Shown piece by piece: positions 8,194-28,209 of a stretch of 42,701 nucleotides of DNA. Both the position numbers and the translations under genes were made by a program. The stretch lies in contig PKTU01000145.1 in assembly GCA_002869005.1 (NCBI GenBank), positions 869 through 43,569 of the forward strand, in the 5' to 3' direction. This stretch comes from Deltaproteobacteria bacterium (GTDB lineage Bacteria > Desulfobacterota > Deferrisomatia > Deferrisomatales > BM512). Position 1 is the stretch's first letter, and each line of letters opens with the position of its first letter. The notes beneath the pieces are model-generated. The model had not been told where the DNA came from. It saw only the letters and a list, made by a program, of their open reading frames with translations, and did not search any database.

Positions 8194-8571
8194 CTAAAGC
8201 GTAGCGACAAACTCCATAGCCAGGGACGCTCCCTTCGGCAGCGCAGAAACCTCAACCGCCGCGCGCGCCGGGGGATCGTCTCCGAAGAACTACGCGAAGA
8301 CCTCGTTTACCGCCTCAAAATCGCCGAGGTCGGTAAAGTAGATAGTTGCCTTCACCACGTCGCCGATAAAGCCACCCCCAGCCTCGATAATCGCAACACC
8401 GTTTCGGATTATCCTCCGCGCCAGCTCAGCCGCGTCACCCTCGACAAGGGCTCCGGTCGCGGGGAATATCGGCAGCTGCATCGATACCCAGATAAGGCCG
8501 CCCGCCGAGACACCTTGGCTATAGGGGCCGACCGCCGCAGGGGCGCTTTTGGTTTTTATTATCTCGCTCAC
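8194..8571 (-). CDS. ridA: RidA family reactive-intermediate deaminase, interrupted by in-frame TAG
   Basis: RidA hydrolyses reactive enamine/imine intermediates made by PLP enzymes. The frame opens with GTG at 8569-8571 behind AGGAGAG and reads SAPAAVGPYSQGVSAGGLIW, then GDVVKATIYFTDLGDFEAVNEVFA, then a TAG codon at 8290-8292. Past the TAG the same frame continues with FFGDDPPARAAVEVSALPKG and ends at a second TAG (8194-8196). The continuation contains the family motif PPAR, whose Arg binds the substrate carboxylate, so it is clearly the missing C-terminus. Total length including the amber is 125 codons, as expected for RidA. Without readthrough the product lacks the catalytic Arg and should be inactive. 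The residue at the TAG is usually Glu, Lys or Arg in relatives. The gene is last in the gua-gmk-rpoZ-rel operon, ten bases after rel. Confidence 0.8.
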
Positions 8572-8580
8572 GGCTCTCTC

Positions 8581-10704
8581 CTAACTCCGCACCCTGATGA
8601 CGCTTTCAACAGTTTTCAGGTCGCGTACAGCTTTTATTATCTTTTGCAATTTATCGATATCGGGGACAAGGAGCGCGAACTGATACTCGGATTTGCCAGG
8701 CATCAGCGGCTTTACCTGCGCCGAGACCACCTGCACCCCGAACCCAGCAAGCGCGGTGGTTATGTTGGGAAGCATCGTAGCCTTGTCGGTAGCCTGAACC
8801 TTGAGGCGTACGGGATGGGCTGTAGAGTCCTCAAGCCCCCATTCCACATCTATCCTGCGGCTCTCATCGGATCGTTTAAGGTTTGGACAGTTGGCGGCGT
8901 GCACAGTCATGCCGTGACCCCGGGTTATGAACCCAACCACCGGTTCACCGGGCAGCGGGCTGCAACACTTTGCGTAGCGGACCATTACGTCGCCCACCCC
9001 CTTTATCACTATACCCTGCTTCGATTTTTTCTGGGGTGGTTTCCGCTTTGTGGATTCCTCCTGAACCCGCTCAAACTCAGGGTACACCTTCTCAATGATC
9101 TGCCTTGCCTGGACTTTGCCGTAACCAACCGCCTCAAGGACTTCTTCAGCCTTGTTTACTCCGAAGCGGTCGGCCACATCATCTATCAACCCCTCCTTCA
9201 ACGCCTTGGAGAGCGATTTCGATACCTTCCTGAACTCCCTGTCGAGGATATCACGACCCAGGGCTATTGAGCGTTCGCGCTGCTCGTTGCGTATCCACTG
9301 ACGGATGCGGTTTTTTGCCCGAGAGGATTTCGCGAATTCAAGCCAGTCGGCACTGGGGGTCTGGTTCTTGGAGGTGACTATCTCGATACGGTCGCCATTT
9401 TTGAGTTCGGTGCCAAGGGTTACCATCCTGTCGTTGACCTTGGCGCCGACGCAGCGGTTACCCACCTGGCTGTGTATTGCATAAGCGAAATCGATTGGCG
9501 TAGCGCCGCGGGGTAGCTCCATCACCTGCCCGGTCGGCGTGAATACATAGACGACATCCGGGAAGAGGTCCCCCTTGACGTGGTCGACGAACTCGCTGGC
9601 GTCCGCCACCTCCTGATTTGCCTCGACCACCTGCCTGAGCCAACTGAAGACCGAGTCAGCCTTGCCGCCCGCCGCGCCGCGCTCCTTGTAGCGCCAGTGC
9701 GCCGCGATGCCCTCCTCCGCGACTGCGTGCATCTCGCGTGTGCGAATCTGCACCTCCATAGGGATGCCGCGAGGGCCTATAACAGTCGTATGGAGCGACT
9801 GATAGAGGTTCTTCTTCGGAAGGGCGACGTAATCTTTAAAGCGCCCCGGCACAGGCTTCCACCTGGAGTGGACCGCTCCGAGGAGGGCGTAACATTCGGA
9901 GAGCTCGCCGCAGATAATCCTGAACGCAACGCGGTCGTATACCTTATCGAAGGGTATCCCCTGGTCGAGCATCTTCATGTAGATGGAGTAAAGGTGTTTT
10001 ACGCGCCCGTATACCTTTCCATCGACCCGGTTCTCATCGACTATTCCGGTGAGGGTTCCCTTCACCTCCTCGATATACTCCTGCATCTCGCTATGGCCCT
10101 GCTCCTGCTTTGCAGTCAGCTCCGCCCAGACCTCGGGTTCAGTGTATTTAAAGCCCAGGTCCTCAAGCTCGCTCTTCACGCGGTAGATACCCAGGCGGTT
10201 GGCTAGCGGCGCATAGATGTCGAGGGTCTCGCGGGCATACTCCTCGCGTTTTTCCGGGCGGATAAACTCAAGGGTACGCATGTTATGAAGTTGGTCGGCG
10301 AGTTTAATTATTACGACGCGCACATCCCGCGCCATCGAGAGGAGAAGACGCCTGAACTTTTCCGCGTGGTCGGCGGTGGAGGAGGAGTAGCGAATTGAAA
10401 CCACGCGATGGAAGGAGTCGGCGAGGGTTGCGATCTCCTCACCAAACTTATCCTTCACCACTTCAGTGCCGACCTTCTCCATGGCTTCATGGAGGAGACC
10501 TGCTGCGATGGTCTCCTCATCCATGTTCATGTCGGCCAAAATCTCGGATACTTCACAGAGGTGTACCGTGAGGGGGCGGCCTGAGAGGCGCGTGTCCTCG
10601 CCGTGTATCTCAACGGCGAAGTCGTACGCACGCCTTATCAGGTCAATACGCGCGTTTGGGTCGCGCGCCAGAACTTTATCGACAATCGGGTCCAGGGCGC
10701 TCAT
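8581..10704 (-). CDS. RelA/SpoT-family (p)ppGpp synthetase with degraded hydrolase motif
   Basis: The 707-residue protein has the long-RSH layout: HD domain (about 25-190), synthetase domain (about 230-350), TGS (about 390-455, VYVFTPTGQVMELPRGATP), helical and zinc-finger-like region with YAKCCSPLPG, and a C-terminal ACT domain. The synthetase keeps YGRVKHLYSIYMKM, YDRVAFRI and PGRFKDYVALPKKNLYQSLH; the RFKD form is that of bifunctional Rel/SpoT. In the HD domain His48, Asp137 and Asn141 are kept, but HDxxED reads HEAMEK at 72-77, so two metal-site or catalytic acids are altered. Synthesis from ATP and GDP/GTP looks intact, hydrolysis doubtful. GAGGAG precedes the ATG. It lies between rpoZ and ridA, and its stop TAG forms part of the ridA ribosome site. 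Confidence 0.92.
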   Translation of the reverse strand: MSALDPIVDKVLARDPNARIDLIRRAYDFAVEIHGEDTRLSGRPLTVHLCEVSEILADMNMDEETIAAGLLHEAMEKVGTEVVKDKFGEEIATLADSFHRVVSIRYSSSTADHAEKFRRLLLSMARDVRVVIIKLADQLHNMRTLEFIRPEKREEYARETLDIYAPLANRLGIYRVKSELEDLGFKYTEPEVWAELTAKQEQGHSEMQEYIEEVKGTLTGIVDENRVDGKVYGRVKHLYSIYMKMLDQGIPFDKVYDRVAFRIICGELSECYALLGAVHSRWKPVPGRFKDYVALPKKNLYQSLHTTVIGPRGIPMEVQIRTREMHAVAEEGIAAHWRYKERGAAGGKADSVFSWLRQVVEANQEVADASEFVDHVKGDLFPDVVYVFTPTGQVMELPRGATPIDFAYAIHSQVGNRCVGAKVNDRMVTLGTELKNGDRIEIVTSKNQTPSADWLEFAKSSRAKNRIRQWIRNEQRERSIALGRDILDREFRKVSKSLSKALKEGLIDDVADRFGVNKAEEVLEAVGYGKVQARQIIEKVYPEFERVQEESTKRKPPQKKSKQGIVIKGVGDVMVRYAKCCSPLPGEPVVGFITRGHGMTVHAANCPNLKRSDESRRIDVEWGLEDSTAHPVRLKVQATDKATMLPNITTALAGFGVQVVSAQVKPLMPGKSEYQFALLVPDIDKLQKIIKAVRDLKTVESVIRVRS

Positions 10705-10740
10705 TCTGGGCTCCTCGGGGTACGCCGGATTGTCTTTAAA

Positions 10741-10947
10741 CTAGAGGCTGGGGATGGATTTTCGCTCTTTTACGGTAATTTTACCCTCCGCTACTTCACG
10801 AAGCGCGGTTACCACAAACTTGTTTTTGGTCTGCACCATCGCGGGAGCCCCTTTGAGGAGCTGTTTTGCGCGCTGTGCGGCTACCATAGCCAGCGCGAAA
10901 CGATTTGGAATAAGTTCCAGGCAGTCTTCAACCGTTACTCGTGCCAT
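10741..10947 (-). CDS. rpoZ: RNA polymerase omega subunit
   Basis: The 68-residue omega subunit helps assemble and stabilise RNA polymerase through beta'. The conserved opening [21 protein letters not shown] and the following [11 protein letters not shown] and [11 protein letters not shown] are diagnostic. In proteobacteria the N-terminus of omega forms part of a ppGpp site on the polymerase, so its place between gmk and rel ties together GTP supply, alarmone synthesis and target. It starts two bases after the gmk stop and ends 36 bases before rel. Its length is normal for short omega proteins. Confidence 0.95.
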
Positions 10948-10949
10948 CT

Positions 10950-11546
10950 TTACTCGCTTTCTATTTCCTCGGACCCGTTGGCCCGCAGGCGTTCATTCTC
11001 GATGATCGAAGTGAGCTTTTTAGACGCCTCTTCAAGGTCGTCGTTAACAACTATATAATCATAAAGAGGAGCTTTTTCCAACTCCTGCCTTGCATTCAAT
11101 AGTCTCTTAAGAATTATCTCTTCGTCGTCCTTGTTCCTCAACCTCAGCCTCTTCTCCAACTCCTTAAGTGAAGGAGGCTCGATGAAGATGAATACCGAAC
11201 CGGGTATCTTCTGCTCCTTTAAATTCAGCGCACCGACTACGTCAATATCCAATATGACGTCTTTACCATCGCGCCTCACAGCATCCAGCGAAGCATGTGA
11301 GGTCCCGTAGAGGTTGGAGTGCACCAGCGCCCACTCAGCGAACTCGCCCCTTGCAGCCATCTCCCTGAACTCTTCGACGCCTACGAAGTGGTAGTGGACA
11401 CCGTCAACCTCACCGGCGCGCGGCGCGCGGGTCGTGTGGGATATGGAAAACCCAAGCCCTCCCACGCTCTCTCGCACCCGCTCAATGAGGGTTGACTTTC
11501 CGGCGCCGGAGGGAGCAGAGATGATAAAGAGCAGTCCCTTTGACAT
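10950..11546 (-). CDS. gmk: Guanylate kinase
   Basis: The 198-residue enzyme phosphorylates GMP to GDP using ATP. The P-loop [10 protein letters not shown] lies near residues 10-19, followed by [20 protein letters not shown] (GMP-binding region) and the lid with [16 protein letters not shown] chose the ATG at 11544-11546, which overlaps the guaA stop as TGATG, because guanylate kinases begin here ([14 protein letters not shown]). An upstream in-frame GTG at 11553-11555 would add three residues inside guaA. The overlap means translation is coupled to guaA, so consecutive steps XMP to GMP to GDP are encoded back to back. Confidence 0.95.
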
Positions 11547-13102
11547 CACTCCCACTCAATGGTGGCGGGGGGCTTTGAGGAGATATCGTATACCACGCGG
11601 TTGATTCCCCTCACCTCGTTGATTATCCGGTTGGAGATGCGCCCCAGGATATCGTAGGGAATCTTGGACCAATCCGCGGTCATGCCGTCCAGAGAGTTCA
11701 CCGAGCGGACAGCGGCGACGTTTTCATAGGTGCGCTCGTCGCCCATGACACCGACGCTTTTGACTGGCAACAGCACGCAGAGCACCTGCCACACCACGTT
11801 TTGCAAACCACCGGCGGCTATCTCCTCACGGACGATGGCGTCAGCTTCACGCAATATATCCAGCCGCTCCTTGGTGACCTCGCCTATGATGCGTATGGCG
11901 AGCCCTGGCCCCGGAAAGGGGTGCCGCTCAAGTATCTCCTCGACCAGGCCAAGCTCTCGTCCTACTTCACGAACCTCATCCTTGAAGAGCTCTCGTAGGG
12001 GCTCGACCAGCTTAAGGTTCATCTTTTCAGGTAGCCCGCCGACGTTGTGGTGGCTCTTTATGGTAGCCGACGGCCCCTTGAAGGAAACCGACTCTATTAC
12101 GTCGGGATATAGGGTACCCTGCGCGAGGAAGTCGACATCGCCGCCAAGCTTTATTGCTTCCCGTTCGAAGAGGTAGATGAATTCGTTGCCGATTATCTTG
12201 CGCTTGGTCTCCGGGTCCGTCACTCCCGCGAGCTTTTCAAGGAAGAGCTCGGAAGCGTCAACGTGGACCAAGTTCATGTGGTAGTGGTCGCGGAAGGTAC
12301 GGACAACAGCCTGCGCCTCCCCCTTTCTTAGCACCCCGTTGTCGACGAAGATGCATGTAAGCTTGTCCCCCAGCGCCTTGTGCAAAAGCAGCGCTACGAC
12401 CGATGAATCAACGCCGCCGGAGAGCCCGCAGATCACCTTGCCATCGCCGACCTGTTTTTTCACGTCCTCGATAGTTGAGGCGATGAAGGAGCCCATCGTC
12501 CATTTGGGTTCAAGGCCACAGACGTCGAAGAGGAAGTTGTCCAATATCTCACGCCCGCGCGGCGTGTGGACGACCTCTGGGTGAAACTGCACTCCGTAGA
12601 AGGGTTTATCCTCATGGCGCATAGCCGCGAAGGGCGAGTTTTCGGAGGTAGCCGTAACAGAGAAGCCCTCCGGGAGCTTTTCAAGGCGGTCACCGTGGCT
12701 CATCCAGACCGGTGAGTGGTCCTCTGGGCCGAACCCCGCCAGAATCGCCGTCGAATCGGTAACGTCGATATGCGAGAGGCCATATTCGCGCTCGTCGCCA
12801 TGCTCCACGCTGCCGCCTAAGAGGTGGCACATCAGCTGCATTCCGTAGCAGATGCCGAGGACGGGAAGACCAAGGTCAAATATCTCCAGCGGGATTGACG
12901 GCGCGCCTTCGTCATGTACCGAGAAGGGGCTGCCGGAGAGGACTATTCCCCTCGCCCCGAAATCCCTTATAAATTCCATATCGACGTTGCAGGGGTGAAT
13001 CTCACAGTAAACGCGGCTTTCGCGTATGCGGCGCGCGATAAGCTGTGTGTACTGTGACCCGAAGTCGAGGATCAGGACCTTCTCGTCGTGGATGTCGTAC
13101 AT
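11546..13102 (-). CDS. guaA: GMP synthase (glutamine-hydrolysing)
   Basis: The 518-residue enzyme aminates XMP to GMP using glutamine and ATP. The N-terminal class I glutamine amidotransferase domain has [16 protein letters not shown], the nucleophile Cys in [11 protein letters not shown] (near residue 85) and FHPEVVHT with the catalytic His and Glu. The central ATP-pyrophosphatase domain has the P-loop [15 protein letters not shown] near 230, and the C-terminal dimerisation domain ends [12 protein letters not shown], as is standard. The ATG is preceded by TAGGAGAGG, where TAG is the stop codon of guaB, so the two are coupled. Length and motifs are typical. Confidence 0.97.
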
Positions 13103-13111
13103 TTACCTCTC

Positions 13112-15878
<2,767 letters not shown>

Positions 15879-15880
15879 TA

Positions 15881-16531
15881 TCAATCGACTCCTAAAGCGG
15901 CGAGGCGCACCATATTGGATTTAAGCGCCTGATAGCTATCTTCGGAGAGCCCCGCGCCACGCGCGACGACTTTGGCGAAATCCGATGTTATTAAATCTCC
16001 CGGAGTGTGCGCATCAGTGTTTAGGGCCAGCAGCGCGCCGCTTTTGGCTGCCATCTGCACCACATGTCCGTTTGTAAGGGAGTGGCCCTTTCTGGCGGTT
16101 AGCTCAAGGGTGACTCCGTTCACGGATGCCAGCTGCGCGAGCTCAAGGGGTATAAGACCAGGGTGCGCGAGGATATCGCAACGCCCCTCGATTGCAGCCT
16201 TATTGGTCCCCTCCTCAACCGGCTCTACGGGGGATTCGCCATGTACTACAACTATGCGCGCGCCAAGGTCTCTGGCCTTCTCGATGAGGCCGGGAATCTG
16301 CGCTGGAGGCGCGTGCGTTATCTCAACTCCGGGAATAGCCCTTATGGAGCGCTCGCGATTGTTCTCTCGGCACACCTCGACGATTCTGGGAACTATATAG
16401 TCCAGATTGGAAGCATCGGCGTGGTCGGTCAGCGCAATTCCGGCAAGCCCCTTCATCTGGGCGCGCCTTATCAGCTCCGATGGGACTAGCACCCCGTCGG
16501 AGAATATCGTGTGCGTGTGTAAATCGTACAT
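15881..16531 (-). CDS. PHP-domain metal-dependent phosphoesterase
   Basis: The 216-residue protein starts with MYDLHTHTIFSDGVL, the PHP metal motif HxH, and continues with GIALTDHADASNLD, GVEITHAPP, VVHGES, DILAHPGLI and a final NTDAHTPGDL. All the expected His and Asp ligands of the trinuclear metal centre are present. The short form without extra domains resembles histidinol-phosphatase-like or YcdX-like phosphoesterases. The substrate is unknown. It sits between the nitroreductase gene (18 bases) and the BamB-like gene (overlap or near-overlap), so it belongs to the same operon; this grouping gives no clear functional hint. Confidence 0.85.
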   Translation of the reverse strand: MYDLHTHTIFSDGVLVPSELIRRAQMKGLAGIALTDHADASNLDYIVPRIVEVCRENNRERSIRAIPGVEITHAPPAQIPGLIEKARDLGARIVVVHGESPVEPVEEGTNKAAIEGRCDILAHPGLIPLELAQLASVNGVTLELTARKGHSLTNGHVVQMAAKSGALLALNTDAHTPGDLITSDFAKVVARGAGLSEDSYQALKSNMVRLAALGVD

Positions 16532-16549
16532 TGCTTTAACTTTCAGTCC

Positions 16550-17092
16550 TTAGTAGCTGTTTTTTCTAGCAAATTCCGCCTTGTCCTTACGGGGAGGCAG
16601 ATTTGGTTCCTGGTTGGGATACCCGAGAGGTGTAAGGGCAACGACCTCAACACCCTCCGGTGCGCCGAGGGCAGCTCCCGCCTTTTCACTGTCGAAGAGC
16701 CCCACGCATACTGTTGCGAGCCCCTCGGAGTGGGCGGCAAGCATGAAATTTTGCATCGAAAGCCCGGTATCAAAGAGCGCCCAACCATTGCCGCGAGGGG
16801 TAGCCGGCTCGCCCTTTTTGAAACCGGCGCGGTTCAACTTAGCGCAAAAAGCCACCACCAAAGGCGCTCCAACCATCGCCTTGTAGGCGGGGTTGGTCTC
16901 CGGCAATGTCGCTTGCAGCGCCAATTTTTTAGCCGGGTCATCTATGACAACGACCTCAACGCATTGAGAGTGCGCCCAGCTTGGAGCCCACTGCGCCGCT
17001 TCTATTATGCGGTCGAGAACGTCGGAGGGAACGGCGGTCTCTTTGTAGCGTCTAATGGAGCGGCGCTCTTTGATGGCCTCGTAAAGTTCCAT
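16550..17092 (-). CDS. Nitroreductase-family flavoprotein
   Basis: The 180-residue protein is an FMN-dependent nitroreductase-like oxidoreductase. It starts ELYEAIKERRSIRRYKETAVP, which contains the FMN phosphate-binding Arg cluster, then has APSWAHSQCVEVVVIDD, AALDTGLSMQNFMLAAHSEGL-type dimer and FMN contacts, and ends TPLGYPNQEPNLPPRK. It probably acts as a cytoplasmic dimer using NAD(P)H. The natural substrate cannot be told from sequence. It is the first gene of a three-gene unit with the PHP phosphoesterase and the BamB-like lipoprotein. Confidence 0.85.
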   Translation of the reverse strand: MELYEAIKERRSIRRYKETAVPSDVLDRIIEAAQWAPSWAHSQCVEVVVIDDPAKKLALQATLPETNPAYKAMVGAPLVVAFCAKLNRAGFKKGEPATPRGNGWALFDTGLSMQNFMLAAHSEGLATVCVGLFDSEKAGAALGAPEGVEVVALTPLGYPNQEPNLPPRKDKAEFARKNSY

Positions 17093-17181: not shown

Positions 17182-17979
17182 TCAACCCCTGGCCCGTCGT
17201 TGCCTCGCGGCCTCGAAGAGAATCACGCTGGTTGCCGTGGCGACGTTCAAGGACTCAACCGCGCCCTCCATGGGAATGGTGATGAAGCCGTCGACAAGGG
17301 TCTCCCACGCGGGGTCGAGGCCCGCCGCCTCCTGCCCCATGATGAGGGCGAAGGGAGCTGCAAGGTCGCGTTCTTCGGGGAGGGAGCCCCCCTCACCCGC
17401 GGTAGCGTATATCGGCCTTTTAAGCTCTTTTTTCAGCCACTCCCTGGAGCCCGCCCGCAAAACCGGCAGCCTCAAGAGCGCTCCCGCCGAGGCCCTAAGT
17501 GCCTTCGGGTTTCCAGCGTCTACGGAGTCCGCAGTGAGAATAATGGCCCCAGCCCCTGCTGCGAGAGCGGAGCGGGCAATGGTGCCCAAGTTGCCCGGAT
17601 CGCGAAGTTTATCGAGGATTACGAGGGGCTTTGCGCCTTCCAACAAGCCGGCATCATCAAATAATGGCGGCTCGATTACGACTCCGACTCCCTGCGGGGA
17701 CTGGGTATCGGAGACCTGCCTCATCGCCCCCTTTGAGAGTATCCACGTCTCTGACGCGCCCTCACGGATATCGCTACGCAGCTTTTCATGGCGCTCTCCG
17801 GTGAAGTCCTCCGCGAAAAAAGCTGTGCGGATCTTCACCCCACTTGCCACGACCTCCTCGACGAGGCGTACCCCCTCCGCTATCCATACACCCTCGCTTC
17901 GACGCACTTTGGGGTCGGAAAGCAACCTTTTTAGATATTTCACCCGCGCATTGGATGGCGCGAGGGGTGACTCCGTCAT
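17182..17979 (-). CDS. SpoU/TrmH-family RNA 2'-O-methyltransferase
   Basis: The 265-residue protein has an N-terminal substrate-binding domain (NARVKYLKRLLSDPKVRRSEG, IAEGVRLVEEV), followed by the SPOUT knot: VILDKLRDPGNLGTIARSA near 128-146, ALIMGQEAAGLD and the C-terminal IPMEGAVESLNVATATSVILF. It resembles the RlmB/TsnR/YsgA-like rRNA 2'-O-methyltransferases; the target nucleotide is unknown. I start it at the ATG at 17977-17979, which overlaps the queH stop as TAATG and follows GAAGG. The frame is open further upstream but that part lies inside queH and lacks family similarity. It is the second SPOUT enzyme of three in the first half of the window. A weak hairpin surrounds its stop codon. 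Confidence 0.88.
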   Translation of the reverse strand: MTESPLAPSNARVKYLKRLLSDPKVRRSEGVWIAEGVRLVEEVVASGVKIRTAFFAEDFTGERHEKLRSDIREGASETWILSKGAMRQVSDTQSPQGVGVVIEPPLFDDAGLLEGAKPLVILDKLRDPGNLGTIARSALAAGAGAIILTADSVDAGNPKALRASAGALLRLPVLRAGSREWLKKELKRPIYATAGEGGSLPEERDLAAPFALIMGQEAAGLDPAWETLVDGFITIPMEGAVESLNVATATSVILFEAARQRRARG

Positions 17980-18527
17980 TATCCGCTTCCCTTCACCGCT
18001 CTTGGGCGAAAGCGCTCCACCTCGCTGTAGAGGCAACCGCAGTAATCCTGTCTGTACATACCTAGCTCACGCGACCTCTCAACCCCCTCATCCCAATTAT
18101 CCCGCCAGTCGCGGTAGATAAAGGGTATGTCAAGCTCCTCCGCGACGCTCTCACCGGCCTCTCTGACCGCCTCGTGGTTCTGGTAGCGGGAGTATAGGAG
18201 CGTCGTGCTGAAGCCGTCAAAGCGCCCCTTTTTGGCTCGTTTCGCGGTCTCGAAGAGGCGCATACGGTAGCATAAACGGCAGCGCCGCTCCTCGCGGTAG
18301 GCAACTTCACGGAGCCATCCGCGAACTTCATACTCAGGCGCTGGCAGCTCTCTTACACCGGCACGGTCAAGATGTTCACTCAGAGCACTCCGCCTGGCCT
18401 CCCACTCGCGATAGGGGTGGATGTTCGGGTTGTAATAAAATGCGAACGCTTCTATACCCTCCTCGCCGAGTATTCGCAAGGGGGCGATTGAACATGGTCC
18501 GCAGCAGGCGTGCAAGAGGAGCTTCAC
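17979..18527 (-). CDS. queH: Epoxyqueuosine reductase QueH
   Basis: QueH (formerly DUF208) reduces epoxyqueuosine in tRNA to queuosine, the last step of Q biosynthesis, replacing the cobalamin enzyme QueG. The diagnostic cysteine motifs are all visible: LLHACCGPC at the N-terminus, RRCRLCYRMR mid-protein, and a C-terminal YCGCLYSE. QueH is a metalloprotein with an Fe-S cluster and an extra iron. FYYNPNIHPYREWEAR and FSTTLLYSRYQNH are also typical. I prefer the GTG at 18525-18527 (182 residues), since family members start VKLLLH and GGAG lies nine bases upstream; a TTG at 18542 would add five residues. It overlaps the SpoU gene by one base and diverges from trmH. Confidence 0.92.
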   Translation of the reverse strand: MKLLLHACCGPCSIAPLRILGEEGIEAFAFYYNPNIHPYREWEARRSALSEHLDRAGVRELPAPEYEVRGWLREVAYREERRCRLCYRMRLFETAKRAKKGRFDGFSTTLLYSRYQNHEAVREAGESVAEELDIPFIYRDWRDNWDEGVERSRELGMYRQDYCGCLYSEVERFRPRAVKGSG

Positions 18528-18568
18528 TTTATTTTTCTCCAAACTTTCGCTTCAAAGCCAATCTCTGC

Positions 18569-18574
18569 TATCTT
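18569..18574 (+). promoter_or_regulatory. Possible extended -10 element placing trmH start at +1
   Basis: TGC followed by TATCTT ends seven bases before the trmH ATG. The usual distance from -10 to the transcription start would put +1 on or next to the A of ATG. No Shine-Dalgarno is present before the ATG, which together suggests a leaderless mRNA. No good -35 is visible. Confidence 0.35.
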
Positions 18575-18580
18575 CCACCG

Positions 18581-19246
18581 ATGGAAACCTTAAAGGACAT
18601 CCTCACCGGCATGATGACGCCTCGGCGCATGGAGCGGCTTATAGCCGTCCTTGAGGGGCGCTTGAAAACGTTGCGCCTGGTGGTTGAAAACCTGCACGAC
18701 CCCCACAATATGTCTGCGGTGGTACGTTCCTGCGAAGCCTTTGGCGTCCAGCATCTACACGTCGTAGACTCCAAGGGCGAATTCAAGCTGAGCCGAGGTA
18801 TAAGAAAGGGGAGCCACAAATGGCTCGATATCCACTACTACGACTCCTTCGCCCCCTGCGCAGAGGAGCTCAGGGAAGCGGGTTTCGACCTTTACGCCGC
18901 CTTGTTGACCGATGACGCGGTAGCGCTTGAAGAGGTTCCGTCAACCCGACCCGTCGCCCTTGTCCTTGGAAACGAGCACGCCGGCGTAAGCGAGGAGGCG
19001 CAAAGACTCTGCGATGGAGCCTATACAATCCCGATGTACGGCTTCGTCCAGTCCTTCAACATCTCCGTGGCGGCGGCAATAAGCCTCTACTCACTCGGCA
19101 CCCGCATGAGGAGCGAGCTAGGTGAAGGGGCCCTGCTAACACCCTCAGAGGGCTCAGCCCTCCTTGAGAGGTGGATACCAAAAGCCTCCCCCCACGCTAA
19201 GAAGATAGCCGAGATCCTTGCGCGGGGCAAAATCAGGGCTGAATAA
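18581..19246 (+). CDS. trmH: tRNA (guanosine-2'-O)-methyltransferase TrmH
   Basis: The 221-residue protein matches TrmH, which methylates Gm18 in the D-loop of tRNA. The N-terminal TPRRMERLIAVLEGR and LRLVVENLHDPHNMSAVVRS are typical, with Asn and Arg of SPOUT motif 1. Motif 2 is LVLGNEHAGVSEEA and motif 3 PMYGFVQSFNISVAAAISLY. The C-terminal basic tail is where TrmH contacts tRNA. The frame is open upstream, but the ATG at 18581 is where family similarity begins; the segment before it overlaps queH. There is no ribosome-binding site, so the mRNA may be leaderless. The 3' end overlaps the convergent lpxK by 14 bases. Confidence 0.9.
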   Translation: METLKDILTGMMTPRRMERLIAVLEGRLKTLRLVVENLHDPHNMSAVVRSCEAFGVQHLHVVDSKGEFKLSRGIRKGSHKWLDIHYYDSFAPCAEELREAGFDLYAALLTDDAVALEEVPSTRPVALVLGNEHAGVSEEAQRLCDGAYTIPMYGFVQSFNISVAAAISLYSLGTRMRSELGEGALLTPSEGSALLERWIPKASPHAKKIAEILARGKIRAE

Positions 19247-20351
19247 TACCCTCAAGGCTCGCCTTAAGTATATCCCCTCCCTGCTCCGAGAAGCTCATCT
19301 TTATAAGCAGCGCCGCAACCATTATCTCCGGTTTGATGAGGCCCTCTATCCTGACTAGGTCTTTCTCGGTGGTAACCAACGCGGAGGCGGAGGAGAGGCG
19401 CGCCCACTTGGCGAGCTGCCCGAGCTCGGCCGACGTGTACTCGTGGTGGTCTGGAAAGGGGGTGGAGTCGAGCAGGCGCGCGCCAAGCTCTTCTAAATCG
19501 AGAAAGAAAGCGCCGGGGTTACCTATTCCGGCAAAGGCAAGAATTTTCCTGCCCTCCACCCAGGCGAGGGGTAAGCGTTCATTCGTATGCGCCTCCCTGA
19601 AGCAATCAGGGGTATGCGCGGCGGTTATAATCGGCGCTTGCGGGTTGTGCGCCGCCAAGTTCTCCTTCAATGCGTTCAAGGAGATCGCCCCTACCCCCTC
19701 TGCGCGGGTAAGCAAAAAGAGCTGCGCGTCCCTAAGCGCGGAGAGGGGCTCTCGCAGGCTGCCCCTCGGCAGGCAAAACAAATTACCAAAAGGACGTGAG
19801 GCGTCTATGACCACTATGTTCAGGTCGCGCTTTATGGCTAGGTGCTGAAAGCCGTCATCCATTACGATTGCTTCGGCCCCAAGCTCATCTACGGCTAACC
19901 TCGCGGCGTCGTAGCGCTTTGCCCCAATCACCACCGGGACCCCCGCCTCAAGGAGCCGCTCCGACAGCAGCAGCGGTTCGTCGCCCACTTCGGCGGCCGA
20001 GTGTTTGATCTCCCTTCCGTCTGAGACAACGACCACATCACCTTCCATCGAGCCGCCGTAACCTCTGGCGATGATAACCGGCTTTTTGCCCAGCGAAAGA
20101 AGGAGGCGGCAAACGGTCTCTACGCAGGGAGTCTTGCCGGTTCCGCCCAAGGTTATATTACCCACGCATACCGTAGGCACCCCGGCGTGGCGGCTCTTTA
20201 GGACGCCCTCGCGGTAGAGGTTCCTGCGCGTGTATTGTATTAGCGCATAGAGCCCTGAAAGGAGTGTCACCGGAGTGAGTAGTAGCGCGCCGAATTTCCC
20301 CTTTGCCCTCCTGCCCAGAAGCTCCTTGACCTTGAAGTGGAGGTTTATCAT
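19233..20351 (-). CDS. lpxK: Tetraacyldisaccharide 4'-kinase
   Basis: LpxK phosphorylates the 4' position of the lipid A disaccharide at the inner membrane. The 372-residue protein has an N-terminal membrane-associated helix (LLLTPVTLLSGLYALIQY, about 23-40) and the P-loop GNITLGGTGKTP at 64-75. The characteristic ARGYGG, DEPLLL, DDGFQHLAIKRDLNIVVID and FAGIGNPGAFF segments follow. Its start overlaps the waaA stop as ATGA. It is the last gene of the long envelope operon and its 3' end overlaps convergent trmH by 14 bases. Length is somewhat above the E. coli enzyme (328), as in many deltaproteobacteria. Confidence 0.95.
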   Translation of the reverse strand: MINLHFKVKELLGRRAKGKFGALLLTPVTLLSGLYALIQYTRRNLYREGVLKSRHAGVPTVCVGNITLGGTGKTPCVETVCRLLLSLGKKPVIIARGYGGSMEGDVVVVSDGREIKHSAAEVGDEPLLLSERLLEAGVPVVIGAKRYDAARLAVDELGAEAIVMDDGFQHLAIKRDLNIVVIDASRPFGNLFCLPRGSLREPLSALRDAQLFLLTRAEGVGAISLNALKENLAAHNPQAPIITAAHTPDCFREAHTNERLPLAWVEGRKILAFAGIGNPGAFFLDLEELGARLLDSTPFPDHHEYTSAELGQLAKWARLSSASALVTTEKDLVRIEGLIKPEIMVAALLIKMSFSEQGGDILKASLEGIIQP

Positions 20352-21658
20352 CGCCGCGCCTCCAAATGTCCTTCGCTTTTAAGGAGCGTGAGCGCACCAT
20401 CCAGCGCGCCGGAGTTCTCATCGAAAAGCTCCCGCGCCGACCGCCGCACCCGCTCAAGCTCTTCCTCATCGGACAAAAGAGCGATAGCCTTTATCGCCAA
20501 CCCATCGGCGTCATCGATCTCCCAGCCGAGCCCCCTTGAGATGGCCTCGTCGCGCATGACCCGCTGGCTCTCCATGTGCGGCCCGAAGAGGACGGGGACG
20601 CCCTCAAGAAGCGGCTCCAGAAGTGAATGCCCGCCGATTGGGGGGATGGATCCGCCTACAAAGGCCAACTTCGCCCCCGAGTAAAGCCCGCTCAGGATGA
20701 ACATTTCATCGACGATGACCACATGCCCCGCCGCCGCTGCATCTTTCAGGGCGGAATAATCCTTGGAGGTCTCACTCCACAGCACGACCTCTCTGCCCGC
20801 GCTTTCAACATCCCTTATCGCCTCGCCAAGCCGCTCCAGATGCCTTGGCGCGATGAAGAGCGCAGTTTTATCAACCCTCGCTGAAATCAAATTTACCGCA
20901 TCCGTTACAACCCGCTCCTCGGTTGGCCGCGTGGAGCCCGCCACTATGACCTTGAAGCCCGCCTCCCCCAGCCTCCTCAAAAGAGCGCCTCCGGGGGAGA
21001 GCTCGGTGGCGGGCTGGATGTCGAATTTAAGGTTGCCGTTAACCGATGTGTGGGCGATGGGCGCTCCCAACTTGACGAAGCGTTCCATATCGCGGCGCGT
21101 CTGGCACTGTATATTTTTGACTAGCGGTAGGAAGGCCCTGAAAAGCGGCGCAAACCTCCTGTAGGCTTTAAAAGCTGAATCTGAGAGTCGCCCGCTTACG
21201 ATATAAGTCGGGATCTCTCTTCTGGCAGCCTCAACCAGCAGGCCGGGCCAAAGCTCCGTCTCGCCGATAACTATCGCGCTAGGGCGTGCCGAGGAGAGCA
21301 TCCTCCCTATGCACCAGAAAAAATCTAGGGGCAGGAGACGGGCCGCGCCGCCTTCACCAAAGCGTTCGGATATCCTAAGCGCCTCATCCCTGCCCGTATC
21401 GGAGGTCGAGGTTACGATTATGGGTGTGCCGGACGCTGCCACCTTCTCCGCCAACGGCTTTATCGCCCGCACCTCTCCCAAAGAGGCCCCGTGGAGAAGG
21501 ATCGCGCCCTTCGGGACCTCCCCCCAAAAGCCAAGACGTTCGCGCCACTTCACCTTGGCGCGCGGGTTAATCAGTGAGTATAGGGGCCAGAGGAGCAGCA
21601 GAGGTATACCCGCCGCATTGAATACCAGCTGGTAGAGAAGATAGAGGGGGCCCTTCAT
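20348..21658 (-). CDS. waaA: 3-deoxy-D-manno-octulosonic acid transferase
   Basis: WaaA (KdtA) transfers Kdo from CMP-Kdo to the lipid A precursor. The 436-residue protein has an N-terminal membrane anchor (about 5-30, LLYQLVFNAAGIPLLLLWPL), the GT30 motif LHGASLGEVRAIKPL with the catalytic Glu near residue 60, TSTSDTGRDEA, WPGLLVEAARREIPTYIVSGRLS and the C-terminal donor-binding fold with VAGSTRPTEE, FVGGSIPPIGGHSLLEPL. It overlaps the upstream acyltransferase gene (ATGA) and the downstream lpxK (ATGA), so the three are coupled. How many Kdo residues it adds cannot be told from sequence. Confidence 0.95.
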   Translation of the reverse strand: MKGPLYLLYQLVFNAAGIPLLLLWPLYSLINPRAKVKWRERLGFWGEVPKGAILLHGASLGEVRAIKPLAEKVAASGTPIIVTSTSDTGRDEALRISERFGEGGAARLLPLDFFWCIGRMLSSARPSAIVIGETELWPGLLVEAARREIPTYIVSGRLSDSAFKAYRRFAPLFRAFLPLVKNIQCQTRRDMERFVKLGAPIAHTSVNGNLKFDIQPATELSPGGALLRRLGEAGFKVIVAGSTRPTEERVVTDAVNLISARVDKTALFIAPRHLERLGEAIRDVESAGREVVLWSETSKDYSALKDAAAAGHVVIVDEMFILSGLYSGAKLAFVGGSIPPIGGHSLLEPLLEGVPVLFGPHMESQRVMRDEAISRGLGWEIDDADGLAIKAIALLSDEEELERVRRSARELFDENSGALDGALTLLKSEGHLEARR

Positions 21659-22293
21659 GGCGAGGTGACACCCAACATGGCATCGGCACGTTCATTGACC
21701 TCCACCAGCGCCGCCTCTATGCGCTCCATTACAACCTCTATCTCCTCATCCTTGTCGAAGGTCAGCGGCTCGCCGTATATGAACTGTACCGTCGAGAAGG
21801 GGTGGGGCAGCTGAAAGCGGTCCCAGGAGGCGAAAACTTTCTTTCGCGAGGCAGCAACTCCAATCGGGATGAAGGGCAACCCCGTTCTCTGGGCGGCAAA
21901 GGCGATCCCCGGCTTTACTTTATAACGCGGCCCTCTTGGCCCGTCGGGGGTGAAGGCTATATTGTTGCCGCTCTTCGCGTGCCGGAGAATTCCCCTAAGG
22001 GCGTTTGAGCCTCCCCGTGACGAGGAGCCGCGCAGGCCCACAAAGCCCAGCTTTTCGATTACCCTAGTTATCATCTCCCCATCGTCGGACTGGCTTACGA
22101 CAACCCCTATCCCGAGGTCGCCGAGGCGCAGTATGGGGGCGATGAGCCGGTTATGCCAAACCGCCAAGAGCTTTGGGCCCTCAGCGTCGATCCTCTCTCT
22201 CCCCTCCTCCTTGAAGTTGAGGGAAGCTCTTAAAAAGCGCATATAAAGGGTGGTGATAGGCGGCACGATATCGACGAGGAGCTTTGACATCAT
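21655..22293 (-). CDS. DUF374 lysophospholipid acyltransferase-like protein, probable lipid A secondary acyltransferase
   Basis: The 212-residue protein belongs to the DUF374 branch of the LPLAT superfamily. Motif AVWHNRLIAPIL near residue 50 is the local variant of HxxxxD, SQSDDGEMITRVIEKLG follows, and FTPDGPRGPRYKVKPG near 115-130 is the family signature. DUF374 proteins called LpxJ act as Kdo-lipid A secondary acyltransferases in epsilonproteobacteria and have been proposed in other phyla lacking LpxL/LpxM. Its place between msbA and waaA supports a similar role here, by inference. The start is an ATG overlapping the msbA stop; a second ATG directly follows and a GTG precedes, all behind GGGGAGGGG. 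Confidence 0.8.
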   Translation of the reverse strand: MMSKLLVDIVPPITTLYMRFLRASLNFKEEGRERIDAEGPKLLAVWHNRLIAPILRLGDLGIGVVVSQSDDGEMITRVIEKLGFVGLRGSSSRGGSNALRGILRHAKSGNNIAFTPDGPRGPRYKVKPGIAFAAQRTGLPFIPIGVAASRKKVFASWDRFQLPHPFSTVQFIYGEPLTFDKDEEIEVVMERIEAALVEVNERADAMLGVTSP

Positions 22294-24008
22294 CACCCCT
22301 CCCCGAACTGTATGGAGCAGACGCGGGCGTACTCCCCGTTTTTCGCCACAAGTTCGTCGTGCCTCCCCTCCTCTATAACTGTTCCATCTTTCAGGAAGAT
22401 GATCTTGTCGGCGTGGCGTACCGTGGAGAGACGGTGAGCGATGACAAAGGTCGTACGACCTTTCATAAGCCCTGCAAGGGCGTTTTGTATCGCTTGCTCA
22501 GACTCCGAATCAAGGGCGCTGGTAGCTTCGTCTAAAATGAGGATAGGGGCGTCGCGCAAAATCGCTCTGGCAATTGAAATCCGCTGTTTTTGCCCTCCGG
22601 AGAGCATATCTCCCCGTTCACCCACGAAGGTGTCCATCCCTTCGTCCGCCTCCTCTATGAACTGGACGGCGTTTGCCGCAGCTGCCGCCGCCATAACCTC
22701 CTCGGAGGTGGCGTCGGGCCGGCCAAGGAGTATGTTGTTGTAGATCGTGTCGTCAAAGAGGAAGGTGTTTTGGTTTACCATAGCTATCGAGCGCCTTAGG
22801 GAGGAGACCTCATACTCTTTTATATCGCGCCCGTTTATCCTTATAGTGCCCTCTTGCGGCAGATAGAAGCGGGGAAGAAGACGCAATATGGTGGATTTAC
22901 CCGCGCCGGATTCACCGACGAAGGCGACCATCTCACCCTTTTTCGCCGTAAAAGATACTCCCTACAATACCTCTTCACCCTTGGCGTATGAGAAATGAAC
23001 GTCGTCAAAGCTGACCTCGGCGACGTCACCCTCAAGAGGCAGCTGTCCGGCCGTCTCCATTAGTGCCCGCTCCTCATCCATAATGCCGAAGACGCGCTCG
23101 GCGGCGCCGATCGCCTGTTGGATGCGGTTGTTAACGGAGCCGAGCTTCTTCACCGGCTCGGAGAGCAGGAGCAGGGCGGTGAGAAAGCTGAAGAAGTTGC
23201 CGGGCGTCATGGTACCCTTAAGCACCTGATGCCCACCGTAGCCTATGATCAACGCGGCCCCTACGGCGCCGAGAAGCTCCAGAAAGGGCGAAGTCGCGGC
23301 GTTTACGCGGGCCCGCTTTAGAATCTGCCTTAAAACGTTATCCGACTCGTCGAGAAAACGGCCTATCTCCCGCTCCTCCGTGCCAAAGGATTTCACTACC
23401 TCTATGCCTGAGAATGCCTCCACCAATATCTTGGAGAGCAGCCCGAGGCGGGTCTGCACCCGCTTGGTATAATTCTTTATAAGGTGGCTCACCCTCTTTA
23501 CCGGATAAATAGCGAGCGGCATCACAAAGAGGGCGATGAAAGCCAGCTTCCAATCCTGCATGAAGAGGACTGTGATAAGCCCTATGGCCGCGAAGAGATG
23601 CCTGACGAAATCGACCACCGAGGGGATGGCGCCCTGCATCGCTGAAACGTCGGTCAACATCCTAGCCAGGAGAGAGCCCGTGGCGTTCTCCTCGAAGAAG
23701 CGCATCTCTCTATACTGGATCGCGCTCATAAGGTCATTTCTTATTTTTATGACAACCGTCTCCCCGACTCTCACCAGGATCACCTGCTGGGCGTAACGGG
23801 CCACCCCCTTGATGAGAAAGAGCACGACTACGACTATCGGTATGACCTCCAGCATTCTTTCGTCGCGGTTTATAAAGACGTCATCGAGGATGGGCTCCAC
23901 CAGCTTGGCTGTCGCCGCAGTGACGCCGCCGACAAGGAGGCTGCAAATCAACGCGCTCACAAGCGAGGAGATGTAGGGTTTAAAGTAGCCGCTTATGCGC
24001 TTAAGCAT
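22293..24008 (-). CDS. msbA: Lipid A ABC exporter MsbA, interrupted by in-frame TAG
   Basis: MsbA flips core-lipid A across the inner membrane using ATP. Codons 1-348 encode the six-span transmembrane domain and the start of the nucleotide-binding domain (ending FSYAKGEEVL). Codon 349 is TAG (22962-22964); the same frame then continues GVSFTAKKGEMVAFVGESGA with the Walker A motif GESGAGKST, followed by LSGGQKQRISIARA and Walker B ILILDEATSALD. It ends in TGA. Total length of 571 codons is normal for MsbA. Relatives usually have Lys, Arg or another residue at the TAG position (VLKGVSF-like). If translation stops, the ATPase domain is lost unless ribosomes restart at the ATG at 22929-22931, preceded by AAGGGTGAG. 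The gene is flanked by lpxB (8-base overlap) and the acyltransferase gene. Confidence 0.85.
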
Positions 24009-25104
24009 CCAGGGCGCCCCTCTCTTTGAGGAAATCTAGCACTATAGAGGCTGCTCGCCCCGATGCTCCACGCTCGCCCATGCTATCCCTGACGGAGGCC
24101 AGTTCAGTTAAGATGCCGCTGCGTTTGGGGCCGTCTTCGAAAAGCTCCAGCGCAAGAGCAGCGGCCTCCTCCGGCTTAGCCTGCAATAGTTCGGGGACTA
24201 CTTCTCGTCCTGCGATTAGATTGGGTAGGGCCATGTAATCTATCTTTACCAGCCGCTTTACTAAAAAGAGGCTCAAGGGGCTGAAGCGGTATACGACTAC
24301 CATCGGCGTACCGATAAGGGAGCACTCAAGAGTAGCCGTGCCGGAGGCTATTATGCAGACGCGCGCGCGCTCCATGACCTCCTGAGAGTTGCCGGGTAGT
24401 ATCTCGATATCTATATCGGGGGGCGAGGAGAGGAGGCTCGGGTCAAGCCCTTCCGCCCTTGGCGCAATGAAGCGTAGCGGGCGGCTTTTTGCCATCATGC
24501 GGGCCGCTTCGACCATGAGGGGCCATAGGCGGGTAACCTCCGAACGGCGGCTCCCCGGCAGGAGCCCTACGAGGTCCGACTCCTCGGCGTGGGTTACCGG
24601 GTCGAGGTGGTCGAGGATGGGAGAGCCCACATAGTCGCAGGGCACTCCGTTCTCTCGCCAAAAGGTCTCCTCGAAGGGGAGGATGGTCATCAGCCGCTCG
24701 GCGGTCCTGCGGACCCGCTTCACACGCGACTTTCGCCATGCCCAGGCCTTTGGCGGAATAAAGTAGATTACGGGAATCCCCATCTTTGAGGCAACCTCCG
24801 CGAGCGGGAGGTTGAATCCTCCAAAGTCTACGGGGATAAAGAGGTCGGGCGGATTTGCCTTGAACTCCTCAACCATCATATGGCGGGCGCTCTTTAGCGC
24901 CGAGATGTTTGAGAGCGCTTCCACAAATCCCATAGCGGAGATGGAGGAGTAATCCAGCAGCAGCCTACCGCCGGCGGAGGATATCCTCTCGCCGCCAATT
25001 CCCCAGACGGCGGTCTCCGGCGCCCTGCTCAGTATCGCCGACACAAGGTTTCCCGCGTGTATATCACCGGAGGTCTCACCGGCCACTACGGCTATCTGGG
25101 CCAT
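24001..25104 (-). CDS. lpxB: Lipid-A-disaccharide synthase
   Basis: LpxB condenses UDP-2,3-diacylglucosamine with lipid X to form the tetraacyl disaccharide. The 367-residue GT19 enzyme has AGETSGDIHAGNLVSAIL at the N-terminus, the hydrophobic membrane-contact region SAMGFVEALSNI, IPVDFGGFNLPLAE (catalytic Asp region), YFIPPKAWAWRKSR, and LLPGSRRSEVTRLWPLM followed by IASGTATLECSLIGTPMVVVY at the donor site. It lies 20 bases after lpxI and overlaps msbA by eight bases. No anomalies. Confidence 0.96.
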   Translation of the reverse strand: MAQIAVVAGETSGDIHAGNLVSAILSRAPETAVWGIGGERISSAGGRLLLDYSSISAMGFVEALSNISALKSARHMMVEEFKANPPDLFIPVDFGGFNLPLAEVASKMGIPVIYFIPPKAWAWRKSRVKRVRRTAERLMTILPFEETFWRENGVPCDYVGSPILDHLDPVTHAEESDLVGLLPGSRRSEVTRLWPLMVEAARMMAKSRPLRFIAPRAEGLDPSLLSSPPDIDIEILPGNSQEVMERARVCIIASGTATLECSLIGTPMVVVYRFSPLSLFLVKRLVKIDYMALPNLIAGREVVPELLQAKPEEAAALALELFEDGPKRSGILTELASVRDSMGERGASGRAASIVLDFLKERGALDA

Positions 25105-25124
25105 AAAGCTCTTGTTTATCTCCC

Positions 25125-25925
25125 CTAGAAAGCGACTATGCTCATGTCGTTTCTATCGGCCATCTCCACCGCCTCCTCCTGCTGAAAGAAGAAGGTCTTG
25201 CCCGCCTCAAAGGCCAACACGCGCGCGCCGCCGTCAAGGCATGCCTTCACGGTGCCGAGCCCTATCGCGGGGATATCGAAGCGTTGGTCCTGATCGGGTT
25301 TTGCGACCTTTACCACCACCACGTCGCGATTGCCGAGGCTGCCGCCTCGCAGTATCGCCTGGTCCGTCCCCTCTATAGCCTCAATCGCCATCACCGCGCC
25401 GCGTTTGACCACCACCGTCTGTCCAATGTCAAGGCGGCCCATCTCTGTGGCTACGCTGGCTCCGAAATCGATGTCCACCCTTTCGTCATCTGTGGGCTTT
25501 CTCTTCGTAAAGACTTTGGCGCGAGGTATATAGTCCTCCATGAAGGTAGTCTGAGGTATGAGGGTTATCCCCTCCTCGGCAAGGGCGTCGGCGACCTTGT
25601 TCATGATCGTGTCGTCCTTCCTGTTCCTAAGCGACCAAAGCAGGCGCATGGCGGTCAAGTCGGGCTGAAAATCGCGGAAGATGCGCATCTTGTGGACCTT
25701 CCCCGCGACTATTGCTTCGGTGACACCCTCTTTTCTGAGGTGTTTGAATATCTTGCCCACCTTGCCCACCGACTGCCAAAAGACACCGTCCACGACCTCG
25801 TCGAGGACCGGGCTGGCCTCCTCGGAGATGGCTACCACTACCGGCGAGAGCCCCTTTTGAAGACATTTTCTGACGAGGATAATCGGAAATTCGCCTGCTC
25901 CGGCGATGATGCCTACTTTGCTCAT
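25125..25925 (-). CDS. lpxI: UDP-2,3-diacylglucosamine diphosphatase LpxI
   Basis: LpxI hydrolyses UDP-2,3-diacylglucosamine to lipid X and UMP, replacing LpxH of E. coli. The 266-residue protein opens VGIIAGAGEFPIILVRKCLQ, and contains EAIVAGKVHKMRIFRDFQPD and the C-terminal DIPAIGLGTVKACLDGGARV and LAFEAGKTFFF that form the active site in Caulobacter LpxI. The ATG overlaps the lpxA stop (ATGA). Its presence between lpxA and lpxB is typical of alpha- and deltaproteobacteria. It ends in TAG. Confidence 0.94.
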   Translation of the reverse strand: MSKVGIIAGAGEFPIILVRKCLQKGLSPVVVAISEEASPVLDEVVDGVFWQSVGKVGKIFKHLRKEGVTEAIVAGKVHKMRIFRDFQPDLTAMRLLWSLRNRKDDTIMNKVADALAEEGITLIPQTTFMEDYIPRAKVFTKRKPTDDERVDIDFGASVATEMGRLDIGQTVVVKRGAVMAIEAIEGTDQAILRGGSLGNRDVVVVKVAKPDQDQRFDIPAIGLGTVKACLDGGARVLAFEAGKTFFFQQEEAVEMADRNDMSIVAF

Positions 25926-26698
25926 ATGCGTGTAACGCCCCTTTCACTGGACTCGATGAAGGAGACCATATACTTGACCGCGTCTATCCCGTACTCCTCC
26001 ATCTCCATAAGGTTCTTAACCGCCGTAGAGAGGTTGTCCTTTGATTGGAAGAGGGTGCGGTACGCGGTGCGAATCGCTTTTATCTTTGCGCGATCGAACC
26101 CCCGGCGCTTTAAACCTATGAGGTTCAACCCGGCGAGCCGCGCGGGATTTCGACCCGCGGTCACGTATGGCGGGATATCCATGAGGACAACCGCGCCGCC
26201 GCCCACAATCGCATGCTCTCCCACCCTTACGAATTGATGTATTCCTGTGAGCCCTCCCACTATGACGTGGTCTTCCAGGGTGACATGTCCCGCCAGCGTG
26301 GCGGCGTTGGCGAGTATGACCCCGTTGCCCACCATGCAGTCATGGGCGACGTGGGCGTAAGCCATGACAAGGCAATCACTACCCACCTTGGTCACGCCGC
26401 CTCCGCCCTCGGTGCCGGTGTGTAGGGTGGCGAACTCGCGCACCATAGTCCTTGCACCGACCTCAAGGGTCGTGGGCTCTCCTTTGTATTTGAGATCCTG
26501 CGGCTGGAAGCCTACCGCCGCATGGGGGAAGATACGGGCATCCTCGCCGATGGTGGTATGGCCGTCTATCACCGCATGAGCGCCTACCGTTACTCCGGCT
26601 TTGAGCTCTACGTCCGGTCCGATTACAGCATAGGGAGCAATCTTCACAGAGGGGTGTATGCGCGCCTTCTCATCGACAACCGCCCTTGAGTCAACCAT
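25922..26698 (-). CDS. lpxA: UDP-N-acetylglucosamine acyltransferase
   Basis: LpxA is the first enzyme of lipid A synthesis, moving an (R)-3-hydroxyacyl chain from ACP to UDP-GlcNAc. The 258-residue protein is a left-handed beta-helix with hexapeptide repeats (IHPSVKIAPYAVIGPDVELK onward), the catalytic His in YAHVAHDCMVGN near residue 120, and the GIHQFVRVGEHAIVGGG acyl-pocket region. The C-terminal helical part follows from NPARLAGLNLIGLKRRGF. It starts 14 bases after fabZ and overlaps lpxI. Acyl-chain preference is not determinable by eye. Confidence 0.96.
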   Translation of the reverse strand: MVDSRAVVDEKARIHPSVKIAPYAVIGPDVELKAGVTVGAHAVIDGHTTIGEDARIFPHAAVGFQPQDLKYKGEPTTLEVGARTMVREFATLHTGTEGGGGVTKVGSDCLVMAYAHVAHDCMVGNGVILANAATLAGHVTLEDHVIVGGLTGIHQFVRVGEHAIVGGGAVVLMDIPPYVTAGRNPARLAGLNLIGLKRRGFDRAKIKAIRTAYRTLFQSKDNLSTAVKNLMEMEEYGIDAVKYMVSFIESSERGVTRI

Positions 26699-26712
26699 AA
26701 AGCAAAGCCTCT

Positions 26713-28205: not shown

Positions 28206-28209
28206 GTTA

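Follow-up and report, generated by a model that had tools for sequence, protein, structure and literature searches.

A Rel-type long RSH with a degenerate hydrolase motif and a second, predicted hydrolase-only RSH in an order of Desulfobacterota

The stretch of DNA analysed here, hereafter the window, comprises 42,701 nucleotides. Its reverse strand holds the gene run guaB-guaA-gmk-rpoZ-rel-ridA (8290-14581), in which three GTP-making genes adjoin a predicted alarmone synthetase. By domain and family matches, guaB (13112-14581) encodes IMP dehydrogenase and guaA (11546-13102) GMP synthase; they are followed by gmk (guanylate kinase, 10950-11555), rpoZ (RNA polymerase omega, 10741-10947) and the rel gene, here called RSH1 (8581-10704). 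Among the 12 genomes of the order to which the window belongs, RSH1 is adjoined by rpoZ in all 12, by gmk in 11, the locus of the twelfth being short, and by ridA in 11. The same gmk-rpoZ-rel-ridA arrangement surrounds the intact single Rel of family f28 (L033), which groups with Geomonas (Geobacteraceae). In the window the ridA-like gene downstream of RSH1 (8290-8571) is cut short after 93 codons by an in-frame stop, behind which the RidA-like reading goes on in frame; the gene is uninterrupted in the same-genus genome G123. The interruption may reflect a pseudogene, readthrough or an error.

RSH1 encodes a Rel-type long RSH of 707 residues, which a comparison of domains and residues predicts to be (p)ppGpp synthetase-only. 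The protein is full-length, with HD_4, RelA_SpoT, TGS, AH/RIS and ACT domains in the HD-synthetase-TGS-helical-CC-ACT architecture of Rel, and scores 702.7 bits against TIGR00691 (cut-off 499.2). The HD domain, a predicted pseudo-hydrolase delimited by Pfam HD_4 and an AlphaFold model, comprises residues 26-173 (10186-10629). Domain calls place the synthetase domain at residues 233-343 (9676-10008), the TGS domain at residues 385-444 (9373-9552) and the ACT domain at residues 628-704 (8593-8823), all on the reverse strand. In a quick tree the RSH1 clade sits among the Rels of the phylum, in which named Geobacteraceae and Desulfuromonadales loci also nest, and tree and synteny together identify RSH1 as a Rel orthologue.

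In the position of the HDxxED hydrolase motif, RSH1 reads HEAMEK (residues 72-77, 10474-10491). The sequence-only reading had reported this change, with Asp replaced by Glu at residue 73 and by Lys at residue 77, and had found His48, Asp137 and Asn141 retained. Rereading of the codons, column conservation and alignment bore out each of these points; its span for the motif (10471-10491) began one codon too far out. The metal histidines H48 and H72 as well as E76 are also present. The pocket tyrosine, Y51 in Acinetobacter baumannii SpoT, aligns with L45 (10570-10572, reverse strand), and two residues are missing, relative to Rel, directly behind the motif. The intact hydrolase site expected of a Rel, HDxxED together with the pocket tyrosine, is therefore absent from RSH1. 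On the synthetase side all 11 residues checked are unchanged (R234, K236, D257, R288, K290 and D291 of the RFKD motif, Y301, H305, E317, Q319 and R321), in agreement with the earlier view that this domain is intact. With both motif aspartates and the pocket tyrosine gone and the synthetase intact, the proposal of a synthetase-only enzyme gains support at the level of sequence, and RSH1 is predicted to be a ribosome-type long RSH turned dedicated (p)ppGpp synthetase.

A sequencing error behind HEAMEK was ruled out, because G123 reads the same motif in an RSH1 with 94% protein identity to that of the window genome (G000), even though synonymous divergence of the HD domain between the two is near 1 (dN 0.016, dS 0.98). 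The motif was also compared with a background of genomes with a single RSH. HDxxED is kept in 60 of 60 single-RSH-hit representatives of other families and in 23 of 23 full-length single-RSH Rels, six of which came from loci selected by the HDxxED pattern, and HEAMEK is hence not a chance variant. The 60 census genomes were hand-picked from the single-match genomes on the list, each family being represented once, and their single-RSH status (59 plus G346) comes from searches that scored at most three or at most two candidates per genome, in which a hidden second copy is possible. At least 80 loci were obtained by scanning contigs with the patterns LHDT[LIV]EDT and EK[ED][QSN]IL[ST][QW][YF]. 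Through these patterns the 41 named Rels in alignment A3 had been preselected for an intact motif, which makes the invariance of their motif columns circular and not evidence; eight genomes added for named loci, G395 and G396 included, were preselected in the same way.

The two aspartate changes and the leucine were then set against published variants. By its numbering, and with alignment ranges that roughly agree, D66 of human MESH1 is presumably the motif position at which RSH1 carries its change from Asp to Lys. The D66K variant of MESH1 is described as catalytically inactive in a portion of PMC9894426. For A. baumannii SpoT, passages of PMC9974481 report inactivation by substitution of Y51, E82, D83 or N147. 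The RSH1 equivalents of Y51 and D83 are Leu and Lys, and because these sit where substitutions inactivate SpoT, hydrolysis by RSH1 should fail.

The AlphaFold model of RSH1 has a mean pLDDT of 83.7 and a pTM of 0.56. Over most of the HD domain pLDDT exceeds 84, with the alpha6-alpha7 region as the exception, and the best structural match of the model is Staphylococcus aureus Rel (Z 38.5, rmsd 1.7, 324 residues). The model thus predicts that the dead HD domain keeps its fold. Strong purifying selection on this domain in the G000/G123 pair makes a merely decaying domain unlikely and points to a structural or regulatory role. Because the dead HD domain of Escherichia coli RelA regulates synthesis, as described in part of PMC8012599, the RSH1 domain would by analogy have been retained as a folded pseudo-hydrolase, presumably with a regulatory function.

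The sequence-only reading had held that a synthetase-only enzyme would require a separate hydrolase. A protein search and searches with PF13328 and PF04607 found exactly one RSH besides RSH1 in the genome, a long protein of 692 residues called RSH2 (contig C155 of G000, 14987-17065, reverse strand). No small alarmone hydrolase or synthetase was found with PF13328 and PF04607 in this assembly, which is 92% complete, so that a gene could be missed. RSH2 carries HDTVEDT. None of the nine hydrolase residues tested is lost in any of the 11 order genomes that have RSH2, and all 11 copies are changed in the synthetase columns D257, H305, E317, Q319 and R321. The foreseen hydrolase thus has a candidate with every tested residue in place. 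The alpha6-alpha7 stretch (RSH1 columns 100-115) comprises 8 residues in RSH2 (11/11), 16 in single Rels (23/23) and in the window RSH1, and 22 in E. coli RelA; a shorter alpha6-alpha7 loop is attributed to monofunctional SpoT in passages of PMC9974481. In G000 and G059 the neighbours of RSH2 are rsmB and a PASTA-domain gene; in G021 some 4.5 kb separate RSH2 from rsmB. Judged by residues only, a live HD site and a dead synthetase in 11 of 11 genomes place it with SpoT[Hs]-like hydrolases, and it is predicted to be devoted to (p)ppGpp hydrolysis, its synthetase domain being inactive, although it might be weak or favour another substrate.

One form of that last reservation is that RSH2 acts on a different nucleotide, e.g. 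(p)ppApp or NADPH, and that another enzyme removes the alarmone made by RSH1. Among Protein Data Bank entries the HD domain of RSH2 does match MESH1 as well as a (p)ppApp hydrolase, but at lower scores than its best matches, which are long Rel and SpoT chains, and the HD_4 and RelA_SpoT searches turned up no further gene in the 92% complete assembly, where one may have been missed. An other-substrate RSH2 is accordingly considered improbable, and RSH2 is taken below as the likely hydrolase of the RSH1 product.

RSH1 is present in all 12 order genomes and RSH2 in 11, the exception, G176, being 81% complete. When 395 genomes of the phylum were searched with a profile, those 11 alone scored at the level of RSH2 (above 1200 bits), the next score being 320 bits. 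Among the 80 loci listed by the HDxxED-type pattern scan none was more than 34% identical to RSH2, so that these loci include no member of the order. The RSH1 motif varies between and within the families of the order: HEAMEK, HKAVEK, HNAVGT, HDVVEE, HDVLEE, HDVIEV and HHRVAE occur, as do a lost H48 region and HDAVED accompanied by a change of N141 to Asp. In L013 (G095) the stretch bearing the first metal histidine is absent from RSH1, the furthest decay in the family. The eleven tested synthetase residues are kept in 12 of 12 RSH1 proteins. RFKD, which had been read as a mark of bifunctional enzymes, does not serve as one here, as it is present in 12 of 12 RSH1 proteins, 11 of which have lost HDxxED.

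Divergence follows the same division between domains. The median ratio of HD to synthetase divergence is 0.95 in single Rels (n=17), 2.14 in RSH1 and 0.74 in RSH2; the HD domain of RSH1 diverges about twice as fast as its synthetase domain, and the bias is reversed in RSH2. These data bear on the idea that RSH1 is still bifunctional, with Glu in place of the metal-binding Asp, compensation by other residues and RSH2 as an accessory enzyme. Retention of H48, H72, E76, D137 and N141 would fit such an enzyme, as would the purifying selection on the HD domain in the G000/G123 pair. Against it stand Lys at residue 77 and Leu at the pocket tyrosine, since substitution of either equivalent inactivates SpoT (reported in a section of PMC9974481), the four family relatives, which read HEAMEK, HKAVEK or HNAVGT or are without the first metal histidine, and the roughly twofold HD divergence across the order. 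A bifunctional RSH1 is very unlikely on this evidence, and a synthetase-only RSH1 with a pseudo-hydrolase domain is preferred.

The pairing of a changed Rel with a hydrolase-type second RSH was also found outside the order. In a phylum sample of 297 genomes, 32 outside the order had two matches: 25 with a second RSH having an intact hydrolase site, five with pieces of one Rel (G023, G035, G152, G209 and G274) and two with an extra synthetase-motif protein (G058 and G278). The latter seven were omitted from the 25, and G058 and G278 were counted as rows without a second hydrolase. Their extra RSH-like proteins (L289 in G058 and L294 in G278) are about 460-480 residues long, carry FDDY and EFQIRT or EFQVRT without a recognisable HDxxED, and occur beside an intact Rel. 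HDxxED is changed in the Rel of all 25 genomes with a hydrolase-type second RSH. When the order and G324, G342 and G380, which came from the 395-genome profile search, are added, the Rel is changed in 37 of 40 genomes (36 of 39 without G176, which is among the two-RSH rows although RSH2 was not found in it) versus 0 of 19 genomes without a second hydrolase. Inclusion of the eight named-locus genomes gives 37 of 42 (36 of 41 without G176) versus 0 of 25.

HDxxED is kept beside a hydrolase-type second copy in five Rels, those of G265 (with N141 changed to Asp), G324, G342, G395 and G396, showing that decay is not obligatory. The two exceptions that came with the named loci, Desulfuromonas sp. 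BM103 and a Desulfuromonadales MAG (G395 and G396), were reached through loci chosen by the HDxxED pattern and were therefore preselected for an intact motif. In all 41 second copies examined (11 from the order, 21 long and 9 short) the nine hydrolase residues are present and D257, E317 and Q319 are gone; in the quick tree these copies fall into three separate supported clades, whose deep placement is uncertain. Besides the order, two or more groups of Desulfobacterota show reciprocal pairing too, with second copies that differ. Family f62, distant from that of the window, includes an Rel (L174, G126) reading HETLEK, the same pair of changes from Asp to Glu and from Asp to Lys as in HEAMEK. 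In the short flanks examined of the Rels of the families with a long second copy (f18, f40, f66, f73, f79 and f92), no gmk, rpoZ or ridA was found. Independent contrasts number only two to three, too few for a paired sign test to become significant, and significance corrected for phylogeny is accordingly not claimed; Fisher tests ignore relatedness and were not relied on.

The pairs bear on the order of events. In Desulfuromonadales and relatives, short second copies without synthetase residues accompany a Rel that is fully intact in four genomes (G324, G342, G395 and G396) but changed in families f62 and f85. Because synthetase-dead second copies stand beside intact Rels in some Desulfuromonadales, this suggests that the hydrolase was gained first and the Rel hydrolase lost later, a suggestion that comes from four genomes outside the window's order, two of them preselected for an intact motif. 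The same present functions could also result from a different history, a reciprocal decay of two copies after an old duplication, i.e. plain subfunctionalisation with no hydrolase-first stage. The long branch of RSH2 in the tree fits such a history, and no order genome has one protein with both sites untouched, but the four genomes with a synthetase-dead second copy and an intact Rel represent an intermediate stage that fits the hydrolase-first order, and reciprocal decay is regarded as a possible, less favoured course.

In the preferred reading the order would first have acquired RSH2 as a second, hydrolase-only RSH, which would have made the hydrolase of RSH1 dispensable. The hydrolase site of RSH1 would then have decayed by different routes among the families, up to outright loss, leaving RSH1 to synthesise the alarmone and RSH2 to remove it. 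We assign a probability of about 0.87 to this combination of a synthetase-only RSH1 with a pseudo-hydrolase domain, a hydrolase-only RSH2, and gain of the hydrolase before the decay of RSH1.

The pair was compared with known systems. As in RelA, a degenerate HD domain is combined in RSH1 with an intact synthetase domain. The RelA synthetase carries an acidic EXDD in place of RXKD, whereas RSH1 has RFKD throughout the order. RSH1 also differs from RelA in its Rel-length alpha6-alpha7 stretch, without the extended H-loop described for RelA in part of PMC8012599. In the quick tree RSH1 did not group with RelA, the single RelA itself being a long branch, and RSH2 grouped with neither RelA nor SpoT, each represented by one sequence (SpoT by that of E. 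coli). RSH2 joined the short Desulfuromonadales second copies at a point where long branches meet, and its deep placement is unreliable. In E. coli the locus reads gmk-rpoZ-spoT; the predicted synthetase-only RSH1 occupies the site at which E. coli has spoT, where hydrolysis is kept, so that the roles would be swapped at a conserved locus.

The literature consulted describes for Beta- and Gammaproteobacteria how a bifunctional alarmone enzyme was divided into one that makes and one that breaks the alarmone; sections of Atkinson et al. 2011 (PMC3153485) treat this subfunctionalisation of RelA and SpoT. As in RelA/SpoT, one of the two paired long RSHs has a dead HD domain beside a live synthetase and the other has a live HD domain, and the dead domain is kept; unlike RelA/SpoT, the pair occurs in another bacterial group, with an RSH1 that belongs to the Desulfobacterota Rels. 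This lineage seems to have evolved a division of labour like that of E. coli on its own, outside both clades. RSH2 resembles SpoT[Hs] of Moraxellaceae (A. baumannii, PDB 7qpr), described in passages of PMC9974481, in being a long RSH that is a predicted hydrolase with a pseudo-synthetase and a short alpha6-alpha7 loop, yet the two are distant (phmmer 142 bits over residues 34-603).

The RshD sections of PMC3153485 describe second Rel copies in four delta-proteobacteria, and by that description RSH2, as a second long RSH copy, and the other second copies would count as RshD. RshD is defined there by copy number, is labelled [HS] and has no supported position; the same sections mention no loss of the synthetase and no decay of the partner Rel. 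RshB of Bacteroidetes, according to its published description in the same source, is a Rel duplicate with a long HD-domain branch that is likened to RelA; it belongs to another phylum and was compared by that description only. No report of a split in Desulfobacterota was found in the titles and abstract openings of open-licence PMC literature. On balance we lean slightly towards a broader reading, in which Desulfobacterota split Rel at least three times independently of RelA/SpoT, a hydrolase-only RSH coming first each time and the hydrolase of the ancestral Rel being lost afterwards, and in which the RshD second copies, labelled bifunctional, are dedicated hydrolases. If so, the phylum would show the stages before, during and after RSH subfunctionalisation in living genomes. 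With the same maker/breaker outcome in another bacterial group and intermediate genomes alive, the order of events can be put to the test. Whether a Rel can hydrolyse is predicted neither by RFKD nor by gene position, and automatic annotation of RSH1 and RSH2 as bifunctional would probably mislead in this order.

Elsewhere in the window three genes encode SpoU-type RNA methylases, at 520-1260 and 18440-19246 on the forward strand and at 17182-18036 on the reverse strand. A run of lipid A genes on the reverse strand (19233-28337) comprises homologues of LpxK, a Kdo transferase, LpxB, LpxI and LpxD together with an ABC exporter that is encoded by separate open reading frames for its membrane part and its ATPase part.
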